From Arthrobacter castelli DSM 16402 (GTDB lineage: Bacteria > Actinomycetota > Actinomycetes > Actinomycetales > Micrococcaceae): DNA of 64,000 bases. The translations under genes were made by a program, and so were the position numbers. The stretch covers positions 186,001-250,000 of the forward strand of contig NZ_AUMN01000001.1 of assembly GCF_000430705.1 (NCBI RefSeq), given 5' to 3'. Positions 21,446 to 44,634 of this stretch are shown in pieces (position 1 is the first letter of the stretch; each line of letters opens with the position of its first letter). Below the pieces are notes generated by a model that saw only the letters and a list, made by a program, of their open reading frames with translations, made no database searches and was not told where the DNA came from.

Positions 21446-21566
21446 CGGGTCTCCGCGCGGGTCTCGGTGCGCTCGTTCCTCGCTTACTCGACCGCCGGTG
21501 CGTTGGTCGAGTAAGGCGCTCCGCGCCGCATCGAGACCGGGCTGGAGTGGTCGACCACCGGTGGAT
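21446..21566. repeat. Palindromic dispersed repeat, intergenic copy (hpaE-hpaD)
   Basis: An internally symmetrical element. CTTACTCGACC (21483-21493) pairs with GGTCGAGTAAG (21505-21515); outer GGTCTCGxTGCG arms also match partly. Parts such as GGCGCTCCGCGCCGC and GGTCGACCACCGG recur at 31010-31160 and 32584-32662. It lies within the operon transcript. Confidence 0.85.
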
Positions 21567-27398: not shown

Positions 27399-27877
27399 GG
27401 ACGCGCCCCGGTGCGTTCGCCGAGTTCGCGGCGTAAATGCCGATCATACCGGGGGCCCAGCAATGCGACAGCCAGGAACGCACCCATAGCGGGGAGCAGA
27501 GCCCACCAGGTCGGGATATCGAAGATGTTGATGCTCAATGATGCGAGCATCAACACCACGACTATGCCGGCCAGGCTGAAGCCGATGGTCCGGGTTCCCT
27601 TGCCTGCCGGCCCGGAAATCCTGACGCCGTGCAGGCGAGCGTGAATGGACGGCACAGTCACGGCGGCGATGACGACGATCGCCATCAGGATGCTCGCCAT
27701 CGTGCCGTCCAGAGCCGGAGCCGTCACCAAAAGCACGGTGATCAGCCCCAGCGCGGGGTAATACCACCACGGCGTGACCATACGTCCGGCCAGCCGGGAC
27801 CGGTCCGCGTCGAGCCCCGCGAGTGATTCCCGGGCCGCAGCAGGGGAGATCCTGTTGGATTCTGAGTCGCTTGCCAT
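27395..27877 (-). CDS. Four-helix membrane protein paired with the winged-helix regulator
   Basis: About 160 residues: a polar N-terminus (MASDSESNRISPAAARESLA) and four hydrophobic helices (WWYYPALGLITVLLVTAPAL; ILMAIVVIAAVTVPSI; TIGFSLAGIVVVLMLASL; WWALLPAMGAFLAVALLG), then a basic tail. The frame is open to 28162, but the ATG at 27877 lies 9 bases after TATAGA inside the inverted repeat. Operon with the regulator gene. No family assigned. Confidence 0.75.
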   Translation of the reverse strand: MASDSESNRISPAAARESLAGLDADRSRLAGRMVTPWWYYPALGLITVLLVTAPALDGTMASILMAIVVIAAVTVPSIHARLHGVRISGPAGKGTRTIGFSLAGIVVVLMLASLSINIFDIPTWWALLPAMGAFLAVALLGPRYDRHLRRELGERTGARP

Positions 27878-27922
27878 TACGGCAAGTCTATAAATGGCTT
27901 GCCGTAATGGCAAGCGACTCAG
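27862..27922. promoter_or_regulatory. Perfect 25-bp inverted repeat forming a divergent promoter and two start codons
   Basis: Arms 27862-27886 and 27898-27922 are exact complements with an 11-base spacer (TCTATAAATGG). Each arm contains an ATG and the codons for MASDS of the gene it faces, and each also contains the smaller palindrome CTTGCC-N5-GGCAAG. TATA-like -10 sequences lie in the spacer for both directions. A binding site for the neighbouring winged-helix regulator is plausible. Confidence 0.85.
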
Positions 27923-30289: not shown

Positions 30290-31267
30290 CTAATCTCCAG
30301 CGGCGAGGAAATCGACCGCTGCGTTCTTGAAGGTCCGCGATGTCACCGCATTGGTGTGGGAGCGGGCCGGCAGCACCAGCGTCCGCGCGTTCGCGCTCAA
30401 TCCGGCAAGCCGGGGCATGGTCTCGGCCAACTCGTCCTTCTCCCCGGCCACCAGCAGCATCGGCATGTGGGGCACCGCCTCGGCGGGTACGAATGGCTCG
30501 GTTTTGATCGCCTGAATCATGCTCAGCAGCGAAAAAATATCGTTGGTCGGCACCAGTTGGGCCATCTTCAACAGGCTGTAGCTGCGCTCATCGGCCATTG
30601 CAGTGCCGTCAGCCAGATACTGCTGGGCGGCCGCCAGGTCGAAGTCCGCCAGCGGATCATCCGTGGACGGACCGCCGAGGACCATCCGGTGCACCAACTC
30701 GGGCTGGGTGGCGCCAAACTCCCAAGCCAGCCGGGAGCCAAGCGAGTATCCGATGATGTCCACCCCCGACGTCGGATCATCATCGGCCACGGGGGAGACG
30801 TGAGCGTCGTAGAGTACCTGCAGAATGTCGGCACGCATCCGGCTGGGCGTATATGCGTCCAGGTCTTCGGGCGAAGCGCTGTGTCCGTGGCCGGGAAGGT
30901 CGACACTGATCACCCGCCGGCCGGCGCCGGTCAGTGCGGTCAGCCATCCGGCGTCGTGCCAGTTCAGTTTCGACGACGACGCGAACCCATGCAGCAGCAG
31001 TACCGGGCGGGTCTCCGGGCGGGTCTCCGCGCGCTCGCTGGCGCTCGCTTGGTCGACCACCGGGGCGCGCTCGCGATCTCGATGCGCTCGTTCCTCGCTT
31101 ACTCGATCACCGACCGCCGGTGGTCGACCAAGGCGCTCCGCGCCGCGCGGAGACCCGGCAGGCTCGTGGAATTCCACGTGCAGTCCGGCCTGCCTGCCCT
31201 CCACTGTTTGGGTCGACTCGGCGCTCACCGTGGTCGGCTCTCCGCCGGCGGACTCCTGTGCCGTCAT
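30290..31267 (-). CDS. Alpha/beta hydrolase, split-AcoC-like partner of the lipoyl protein
   Basis: A 325-residue protein. From ~92 on it is an alpha/beta hydrolase: PVLLLHGFASSSKLNW, nucleophile elbow GYSLGS and late His in ARSHTNAV. In acetoin dehydrogenase E2 (AcoC) such a domain is fused behind a lipoyl domain; here the lipoyl gene ends 3 bases upstream as a separate frame. Residues ~40-90 (GSPRGAERLGRPPAV...RAETRPETRP) are encoded by a palindromic repeat inserted in frame just before the first core strand. GAGG precedes the ATG. Enzymatic role unproven. Confidence 0.8.
   Translation of the reverse strand: MTAQESAGGEPTTVSAESTQTVEGRQAGLHVEFHEPAGSPRGAERLGRPPAVGDRVSEERAHRDRERAPVVDQASASERAETRPETRPVLLLHGFASSSKLNWHDAGWLTALTGAGRRVISVDLPGHGHSASPEDLDAYTPSRMRADILQVLYDAHVSPVADDDPTSGVDIIGYSLGSRLAWEFGATQPELVHRMVLGGPSTDDPLADFDLAAAQQYLADGTAMADERSYSLLKMAQLVPTNDIFSLLSMIQAIKTEPFVPAEAVPHMPMLLVAGEKDELAETMPRLAGLSANARTLVLPARSHTNAVTSRTFKNAAVDFLAAGD
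31010..31160. repeat. Palindromic dispersed repeat, in-frame copy inside the hydrolase gene
   Basis: About 150 bp with perfect 13-bp outer arms (31021-31033 and 31144-31156) and inner complementary CCGGTGGTCGACC/GGTCGACCACCGG segments. It shares a stretch of over 40 bases with the E1-beta copy at 32584-32662 and is read as protein in the same frame (PVVDQ...RAETR). Confidence 0.85.
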
Positions 31268-31270
31268 CGC

Positions 31271-31603
31271 CTAGTCCTCGTCGTCGGGCAGTGCGCTGAG
31301 CCGTACCCGGCGCTTAGGCGCTTCCTCGGCCGGGACGGTCCCGACGATGCCGGCGGTGTCATCGGCCACTTCGAAGACGATCAGCGGCTCTCCCACGTTG
31401 ATCGTTTCCCCAGGTTCACCGTGAGTCTTGACCACCTTGCCGGCCTGCGGGGACGGCAGCTCGACGGAGGATTTGGACGTTTCAACCTCCACCAGGGGCT
31501 GGTTCCGCTCGACCTGGTCGCCGGCCGACACCAGCCACTCCAGCACGGTCGCCTCGATCAGGCCCTCGCCGAGGTCGGGAAGGGGGAAGGAAAGTTCAGC
31601 CAC
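31271..31603 (-). CDS. Stand-alone lipoyl-domain protein (E2-like carrier)
   Basis: A 110-residue protein consisting of one biotin/lipoyl domain: ELSFPLPDLGEG at the start, ETSK with lipoylated Lys44, and PGETINVGEPL. An E2 component would continue into an E3-binding domain and a ~230-residue acyltransferase core, both absent; a short acidic/basic tail ends it at PDDED. The GTG at 31603 overlaps the E1-beta stop by 8 bases; the frame's upstream part is not needed. It probably carries the acyl group from the E1 encoded next to it. Confidence 0.88.
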   Translation of the reverse strand: MAELSFPLPDLGEGLIEATVLEWLVSAGDQVERNQPLVEVETSKSSVELPSPQAGKVVKTHGEPGETINVGEPLIVFEVADDTAGIVGTVPAEEAPKRRVRLSALPDDED

Positions 31604-32696
31604 GGCGATACTCCAATACTCGCTGGACCCCGAAGAGGATCCGATCAATGTTGGGAATGTACTCGTCTTCGAGATCACCTGAAGGGTACGGTACATCGAA
31701 ACCGGTAACCCGCTCAACGGGGGCCTTCAGGGTCTTGAAGCACTGTTCAGTAACGGTCGAAGCCACCTCGGCACCGAGTCCGGAAGTCCGGGGTGCTTCA
31801 TGGACGACGACGGCGCGCCGCGTCCTGGACACGGACGCCGCCAGGGCTGAAGCGTCGATGGGCTTGAGCCAGCGCATGTCCAGCACTTCCAGCTCGACAC
31901 CGTCTTCGGCGGCCAGCTCGGCCACCTGCAGGCAGCGGGACACCATCGCCCCCCACGCCACCAGGGTGGCGTGCTTGCCTTCGCGGACGACGGCGGCACC
32001 TGTGCGGGTGCCTGCGTTGTCCAGGTCGACGGTGCCCTTCTGCCAGTAGCGCGACTTCGGCTCCATGAACATCACAGGGTCCGGCCGCGTGGCGGCGTAC
32101 TTGAGCTGGTGGTACGCCTCATGCGGGCTCGACGGCGACACCACCTTCAGCCCGGGCACGTGCGCGAACAGAGCCTCGAGGGATTCGCCGTGATGCTCGG
32201 GTGCGCGGATGCCTCCGAAGCTGGGAACGCGCAGGGTGATGGGCATTGGCATGGTCCCGCGGCTGCGGTAGTTCATCCGCCCGATTTGGGAAATGATCTG
32301 GTTGGTGGCGGGGTAGGCAAACCCGTCGAACTGGACCTCCGGAATGGAATGCCAGCCGGCCATGGCCAGACCCACCGACATGCCCAGGATGCCGGATTCG
32401 GCCAGTGGGGTGTCGAACACCCGGTCCGCGCCGAACTTCTGCTGCAGCCCGTCGGTGATCCGGAAGACGCCACCGAGCCGGCCGACGTCCTCACCAAAGA
32501 CCAGCGTCTTCGGGTTCTCCTCCAGGGTCTCGGTCAACGCCCGGTTCAGCGCCTGCTGCATGGACATGGTGACCGTGTTGCCCGGGGTCTCCGCGCGGGT
32601 CTCCGCGCGGGTCTCCGCGCGGCGCGGAGCGCCTTGGTCGACCACCGGTGGTGGAGACCCAGCCGGCTGGATGTCTTCGGCTACCTCGTTAGACAT
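31596..32696 (-). CDS. 2-oxoacid (or acetoin) dehydrogenase E1 component, beta subunit
   Basis: A 366-residue E1-beta. The core begins at ~44 (MSMQQALNRALTETL) and includes GEDVGRLGG, the DRVFDTPLAE block and C-terminal transketolase domain with DMRWLKPID and VVVHEA. The first 43 residues include a repeat-encoded GSPPPVVDQGAPRRAETRAE segment not expected in the family. The ATG at 32696 has GAGGAG 7 bases upstream and overlaps the E1-alpha stop, so translation does read through the repeat. Pyruvate, branched-chain and acetoin substrates are all possible. Confidence 0.88.
   Translation of the reverse strand: MSNEVAEDIQPAGSPPPVVDQGAPRRAETRAETRAETPGNTVTMSMQQALNRALTETLEENPKTLVFGEDVGRLGGVFRITDGLQQKFGADRVFDTPLAESGILGMSVGLAMAGWHSIPEVQFDGFAYPATNQIISQIGRMNYRSRGTMPMPITLRVPSFGGIRAPEHHGESLEALFAHVPGLKVVSPSSPHEAYHQLKYAATRPDPVMFMEPKSRYWQKGTVDLDNAGTRTGAAVVREGKHATLVAWGAMVSRCLQVAELAAEDGVELEVLDMRWLKPIDASALAASVSRTRRAVVVHEAPRTSGLGAEVASTVTEQCFKTLKAPVERVTGFDVPYPSGDLEDEYIPNIDRILFGVQRVLEYRRG
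32584..32662. repeat. Palindromic dispersed repeat, in-frame copy near the E1-beta start
   Basis: Three exact tandem 12-bp units GGGTCTCCGCGC (32585-32620), which encode AETR on the minus strand, adjoin GGCGCGGAGCGCC and GGTCGACCACCGGTGG. Gain or loss of a unit keeps frame. Confidence 0.9.
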
Positions 32697-44479: not shown

Positions 44480-44634
44480 GCCGAGGTAACACCCCGACAC
44501 CGAGGTAGCGCCTGAGCCGTGAGGTGGCGCCCCAACGCCGAGGTAGCGCCTGAGCCGTGAGGTAGCGGGTTGCAACCCGCTGACTCACGGGAAAGCAGCT
44601 ACCTCGGCGTCACGGGAAGGCAGTTACCTCGGGG
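44480..44634. repeat. Repeat block with nested inverted repeats between convergent genes
   Basis: Two 30-bp direct copies at 44500-44529 and 44538-44567 (one mismatch, 38-bp period) run into a cruciform. CGCCGAGGTAGC (44536-44547) pairs with GCTACCTCGGCG (44598-44609), CCGTGAG pairs with CTCACGG, and the centre is the perfect palindrome AGCGGGTTGCAACCCGCT (44564-44581). A bidirectional terminator is likely. Confidence 0.85.

Follow-up and report, generated by a model that had tools for sequence, protein, structure and literature searches.

The locus considered here raises the question of how closely similar palindromic DNA has come to lie, in one reading frame, inside two genes that encode unrelated enzymes. 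The window under study is a 64,000-nucleotide stretch (C1:186001-250000) of a 4.59 Mb genome in 49 contigs. An earlier note on this DNA had described in-frame repeat inserts at 31010-31160, in a hydrolase gene, and at 32584-32662, in a 2-oxoacid dehydrogenase E1-beta gene; both inserts are found at these positions, and the coding-strand copies of the CC form of the repeat (one of two forms described below) are read as PVVDQ..AETR in both genes. The two sites share arms of 45 nt (31113-31157 and 32608-32652) that are 98% complementary. Between genes, at 21460-21538, the window has a third site, an inverted pair of the other, GT form, with its left half at 21460-21493 (minus strand) and its right half at 21505-21538 (plus strand). 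The window also contains, at 27862-27922, an inverted repeat whose 25-bp arms match perfectly around an 11-nt loop and which is unrelated to this repeat family and, at 44483-44610, a pair of direct repeats of 38 nt (87%) next to inverted arms, likewise of 38 nt, that abut each other (82%).

The two genes and their inserts

The alpha/beta hydrolase gene (30290-31267, minus strand; Pfam Abhydrolase_1 and Abhydrolase_6) holds a 151-nt cluster of three monomers and a 12-nt tail unit. These are the tail unit CGCCCGGAGACC (31010-31021, minus strand), a 37-nt CC-form monomer in sense orientation that is read as VVDQASASERAET (31022-31058, minus strand), a 34-nt GT-form monomer, likewise sense, which has 2 mismatches and is read in a TAA-free frame as DRVSEERAHRD (31075-31108, minus strand), and a 34-nt CC-form monomer antisense to the gene, read as GSPRGAERLGRP (31122-31155, plus strand). 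An insert-free orthologue of the hydrolase is present at all 80 of the related E1-beta loci, and the protein has 325 aa here compared with 266-281 aa in the 50 of 77 relatives listed (lengths of 255-300 aa were admitted, and 3 of the 80 relatives lie outside this filter). The conserved stretches LHVExHEP and RPVLLLHGF flank the insert on either side, which places it within the fold. The location of the repeat peptide, exposed or disordered, was looked at in one AlphaFold model, that of the hydrolase (29 sequences; mean pLDDT 83), in which residues 41-80 are placed between strands 30-34 and 89-92 with block pLDDT values of 44-51, compared with 71-98 for the remaining fold from residue 81.

The E1-beta gene (31596-32696, minus strand; Pfam Transket_pyr and Transketolase_C) encodes 366 aa from its ATG, and its insert of 79 nt is made up of two 12-nt tail units, CGCGCGGAGACC (32586-32609, minus strand), one 34-nt CC-form monomer in sense orientation, read as VVDQGAPRRAET (32610-32643, minus strand), and a 25-nt mini-palindrome, TGGTCGACC..GGAGACC (32635-32659, plus strand), which forms the upstream edge of the insert and overlaps the monomer. 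The nearest named relative found for this protein is from Arthrobacter sp. H14 (91%), on which basis the family is taken to be Micrococcaceae. In a distant search of a plasmid collection with the E1 region, the 20 of 111 records listed were ordinary E1 homologues. The earlier note had also placed the start codon, with a ribosome site, ahead of the repeat. This placement is borne out by the sequence GAGAGGAG upstream of the ATG and by the overlap of the ATG with the E1-alpha stop codon (ATGTCTAA); an ATG in the E1-beta frame that overlaps the stop of an upstream frame that stays open over 150 codons or more recurs in 80 of 80 relatives, and hence the annotated start lies upstream of the insert. 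A second ATG (MSMQQALN) directly follows the repeat and may serve as an internal translation start. Between the E1-beta and hydrolase genes, at 31271-31717, the window contains only a short single-lipoyl-domain frame instead of a full E2.

A structured repeat family and its host genes

The repeat is a structured palindrome of 34-37 nt that begins with GGTCGA, followed by GT or CC and then A, continues through a hairpin and ends with GAGACC. A covariance model built from 33 aligned copies, out of 48 clean monomers, identified at least 54 copies in the genome (all E<0.01); this number may be low, since the genome searches scored 40 of 72 and 150 of 9546 candidates. A first, loose regular expression gave 639 matches, mostly chance, and was dropped in favour of stricter patterns. 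The pattern TGGTCGAN{8,38}GAGACC has 38+44 matches in the genome, a minority of these 82 being chance or overlapping readings of one copy, compared with 3+3 for the same pattern read backwards, and the repeat is therefore not a product of chance. Two outer forms, GT (GGTCGAGTA..CGAGACC) and CC (GGTCGACCA..GGAGACC), occur together with three inner hairpins, and the 54 copies comprise 24 GT, 29 CC and 1 CT. Both sides of the stem differ between the two forms, and the hairpin is kept. The CC form is free of stops in all six frames and the GT form has a TAA in the VVDQ frame. The same genome also carries tandem GGTCGAGCCTGTCGAG units ending in GAGACC (G000:C2:73089-73130; L149), a shorter palindrome with the same ends.

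Support for the hairpin comes from 24 aligned rows of 34-nt copies, 22 of them distinct. The pairing of columns 7-28 is GC in 12 and CG in 9 of the distinct copies, that of columns 12-22 is GC in 17 and CG in 5, and that of columns 15-19 is CG in 15, GC in 5 and UA in 1; five copies lack pairing at columns 13-21 and 14-20. In total 93.6% of the cells are paired, compared with 24-48% in slid controls, and the covariation score exceeds 500 of 500 shuffles, while 3 pairs have changed on both sides, which is no excess over shuffles (309 of 500 reach 3). The hairpin was defined after the copies had been seen and the copies are related by descent, and at the level of sequence the alignment shows conservation of the predicted hairpin rather than many independent events. 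The folding of single monomers has only a slight advantage over that of shuffles (z from +0.06 to -1.80 as DNA and from -0.57 to -3.50 as RNA, both strands), so that the structural claim rests on the alignment.

With genes called by a home-made 3-periodic gene caller, 26 of the 54 copies lie wholly within 16 genes, 25 lie between genes and 3 straddle gene ends, which agrees with the earlier proposal of a dispersed palindromic family inserted in frame. Within genes, 8 of the 26 copies are antisense. A second genome, from another genus of the same family (G007), contains at least 44 copies, all of those found being of the CC form, with 18 in 13 genes and 26 intergenic; all 29 host genes of the two genomes have a Pfam family match. 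The hosts here encode IleS (at two separate sites, with matches to solved isoleucine-tRNA ligases), an HrpA-type helicase with DUF3418, GcvP, PurL (AIRS domains), an alpha-amylase-family protein that we read as TreY, TilS, argininosuccinate lyase (ArgH), an amidase, a peptidase S58, a 4HBT_2 thioesterase, a Cys/Met PLP enzyme, HsdM, an FAD/2Fe-2S oxidoreductase, a MaoC-like dehydratase, the alpha/beta hydrolase and E1-beta. Three of them, viz. IleS, the HrpA-type helicase and peptidase S58, are also hosts in G007, where others include SMC, Mfd-like and Lhr-type helicases, tRNA nucleotidyltransferase, TrmD and an E2 lipoyl protein.

The comparison with orthologues that the earlier note had proposed for E1-beta and the hydrolase was carried out for these and for further hosts. 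The repeat was not found in any of the 80 E1-beta and hydrolase orthologues examined, and the exact pattern has 3 matches and 1 control match in 860,663 bases of those loci, none with the hairpin of the repeat. The earlier note would have given up its reading if unrelated genera carried the same peptide with diverged DNA; none of these 80 orthologues carries the segment. For IleS (19 usable rows, after 10 of 29 relatives' rows in wrong-strand frames were dropped) the repeat was not found in 18 rows, and the remaining row is that of G007. The G007 copy occupies the same linker in the same frame in different company, and because it is a canonical copy of the DNA repeat it represents another insertion and not a diverged ancestral peptide. 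For 13 further host genes the repeat was not found in the readable comparators from genomes G001, G009, G017 and G024, one G001 row for GcvP being uninformative (its loop is a stretch of unknown residues) and the sole comparator for HsdM carrying another repeat. Conserved sequence lies on both sides of the insert, in one open frame, in IleS, HrpA, GcvP, PurL, the TreY-like protein, the 4HBT_2 thioesterase and the hydrolase, and a solved GcvP (9uz6) is 23 residues shorter at the insert site. In the N-terminal cases (ArgH, TilS, the FAD/2Fe-2S protein and E1-beta) translation may begin from a later start.

The loops that hold the inserts seem generally permissive. Genome G001, the one genome of the same genus among those searched, has no copy at E<=0.01, and its proteins have long extensions, without a trace of the repeat, in the same loops as several inserts (L318, L319, L320 and L321). 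The possibility that such loops in G001 and G009 are decayed copies was rejected: none of 11 loops in G001 and neither the single one in G009 reached p<0.05 against codon shuffles (lowest 0.26), and they are thus not recognisable as old copies. In G024, of another genus, HsdM (G024:C1:1295800-1297200; L325) has LVEPVET repeats where the hsdM gene here holds a GT-form repeat. This run apparently stems from another palindrome family, and the peptide has the look of related palindromes of the type GGTTGAGCCTGTCGAAACC, which we take to be common in this order. Its position at the HsdM insert site suggests that the same permissive loops take up repeats of different families.

G007 and G001 were searched with 150 scored candidates per genome. 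In a sample of the family, 3 of 295 genomes carry the repeat at E<=0.001 (this genome, G007, and G111 with two copies), and in a sample of the order 6 of 396 do (this genome and five with one or two copies); the filters here were stricter (17-23 candidates per genome, recovering 23 and 17 of the 54 copies of this genome), so that per-genome counts are low and weak carriers were possibly missed. Across a phylum sample of 396 genomes, 3 have several exact matches to the GT-form pattern (22 here, 23 in G531 and 17 in G574), and 26 others have a single one. The exact CC-form pattern has 25 matches here, at least one of which is not the repeat, and at most 4 in any other genome of the phylum sample, which does not include G007. 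The repeats of G531 and G574, which belong to another family of the same order, read GGTCGAGTAG..CGAGACC and share the ends and hairpin plan; no exact match of the CC form was found in these two genomes.

Reading frame, peptide and tails

The frame shared by the two genes of the window, to which the earlier note had drawn attention, is part of a genome-wide bias and not a coincidence of two genes. Thirteen of 14 sense CC copies here, and 13 of 14 in G007, are in the VVDQ frame; counted by gene the figure is 22 of 24 (binomial p 4e-9 against one third), the 24 genes being not fully independent since three hosts occur in both genomes. The typical predicted peptide is VVDQASASERxET, with two copies beginning IVDQ or VADQ and two G007 copies ending APRGDR rather than ..ET. 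Stops alone cannot account for the bias, since the CC form can be read through in each of its three sense frames; among these, net charge is lowest in the VVDQ frame. All four sense in-gene GT copies lie outside the VVDQ frame (GT 0 of 4 compared with CC 26 of 28, p 4e-4). The two forms share their ends, so a phase preference at insertion would predict one frame for both, and selection on the product fits better. Antisense copies of the two genomes have no single frame (CC: frame 1 four times, frame 0 three times and frame 2 once; GT: frame 2 three times and frame 0 once).

The tails provide a further indication. The GAGACC-ending tail repeats that follow sense in-gene CC copies are 12, 15 or 18 nt long, multiples of three in 14 of 14 cases, compared with 7 of 18 for the tail repeats of 10-18 nt outside genes (p 4e-4); this subset was picked after the data had been seen, and the 3 gene-end copies were grouped with the intergenic ones. 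For all in-gene copies the comparison is 14 of 18 against 7 of 18 (p 0.04), and whole tails show no excess of multiples of three (10 of 13 against 8 of 14, p 0.42). The tail lengths support, without proving, that the frame is kept in genes.

Nature of the repeat and alternative explanations

These results are very probably explained by a short, structured, non-autonomous palindromic repeat of the class of REPs and Rickettsia palindromic elements (RPEs), which is kept in genes where it is in frame and tolerable. Such a repeat would spread as monomers, inverted pairs and clusters, both to spacers downstream of genes and into genes, where just those insertions that keep the frame would survive, in loops, linkers or terminal extensions. 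The in-gene copies would be translated into a hydrophilic, near-neutral peptide that, as judged from the sequences, is probably produced, tolerated and devoid of any function of its own; the frame would be set by selection and not by the insertion step, and the CC form is likely to derive from the GT form.

Precedents for such elements are known. The earlier note was right in citing Rickettsia, and the published record extends further: RPEs are described as dispersed, in frame in unrelated genes, in solvent-exposed parts and at recurrent loci (PMC10969869, PMC3767692), and in-gene palindromes are also reported in Wolbachia (PMC3767692) and in O. terrae, Thauera, Xanthomonas and others (PMC3733652). 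Like the RPEs and Wolbachia elements so described, the repeat here is a dispersed palindrome, in frame in unrelated genes and at recurrent loci; it has paired columns with two-sided changes and lies in frame in conserved genes whose orthologues are without it. Its monomer of 34-37 nt is, however, smaller than the RPE unit of about 100-150 bp, its host is a GC-rich actinobacterium, and it differs further in having stop-containing and stop-free forms and a bias to one frame in two genera. It also resembles the CGTC-tagged REPs, as described in PMC3733652 (short palindromes in pairs and clusters, also in genes, without a dedicated transposase), but CGTC is absent from the consensus of the 33 copies. 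The main text of PMC3733652 does not mention arthrobacter, actinobacteria, micrococc or six other actinobacterial genus stems. The earlier note knew of no described actinobacterial example of this family, and none came up in the literature searched, most subscription journals lying outside it; within the same bounds, no actinobacterial family of in-gene palindromes with stop-containing and stop-free forms and a one-frame bias was found. In-gene palindromes (RPEs and in-gene REPs) are thus a known kind, and the actinobacterial family, its two forms and the measured frame bias are the new part in the literature searched.

A stronger version, in which a selfish palindrome has become adapted to being translated, with hairpin, open frames and peptide under joint selection, is possible, though less likely than not. 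On this reading the CC form is able to live in essential genes because it is stop-free in six frames and its peptide is near-neutral.

That the in-gene copies are functional, the mRNA hairpin slowing ribosomes or altering mRNA stability or the peptide serving as a useful linker, is unlikely. The hairpin is conserved, three host genes are common to two genera, and intergenic copies here lie near stop codons, with 14 in tandem, 4 in convergent and 0 in divergent spacers (background 127, 29 and 38), a placement that, together with that in G007, is the one described for REPs in PMC3733652. Against this, the hosts are unrelated, their orthologues do without the repeat, in several of the insert-bearing loops G001 has other sequence, the antisense copies make up 8 of the 26 in genes here, and in G007 2 of 19 intergenic copies are in divergent spacers (9 tandem and 8 convergent; background 58, 15 and 21).

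That a RAYT (Y1) transposase moves the repeat as a GTAG-type REP is quite improbable. Size, palindromic structure, inverted pairs, placement near gene 3' ends and in-gene copies in repair and RNA-related genes agree with the account in PMC3733652, and some GT copies read GTAG at positions 7-10. The conserved ends are, however, GGTCGA and GAGACC, with no GTAG tail and no GTAG at an unpaired end, and the CC form makes up 29 of 54 copies here and 44 of 44 in G007. No match to the Y1/RAYT family PF01797 was found in this genome (G000), G001, G007, G531 or G574, and there is one in G111, where only two copies of the repeat were found. The control for this search gave matches in 5 of 14 genomes, and individual strains can lose their RAYT, according to PMC3733652.

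An artefact, in which translation begins after the repeat or the hosts are pseudogenes, is very improbable: the ATG of MSMQQALN speaks for it, and the overlap of the annotated E1-beta start with the E1-alpha stop in all 80 relatives, like the conserved sequence on both sides of the seven inserts named above, speaks against it. The view that the repeat is coding sequence spread among proteins by gene conversion, suggested by near-identical peptides in unrelated proteins, can hardly be right, being largely refuted by the intergenic copies (25 of 54 here and 26 of 44 in G007), and both orientations occur in genes.

The preferred reading, a non-autonomous palindrome retained where it is in frame and tolerable, would extend in-gene palindromic elements to free-living actinobacteria, in which genetics and proteomics can be carried out without a eukaryotic host. 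The GT form, with a stop in the favoured frame, and the CC form, with none, together amount to a natural experiment in which selection is told apart from insertion preference, and the family would offer a testable route by which non-coding DNA may become protein sequence in enzymes such as IleS.
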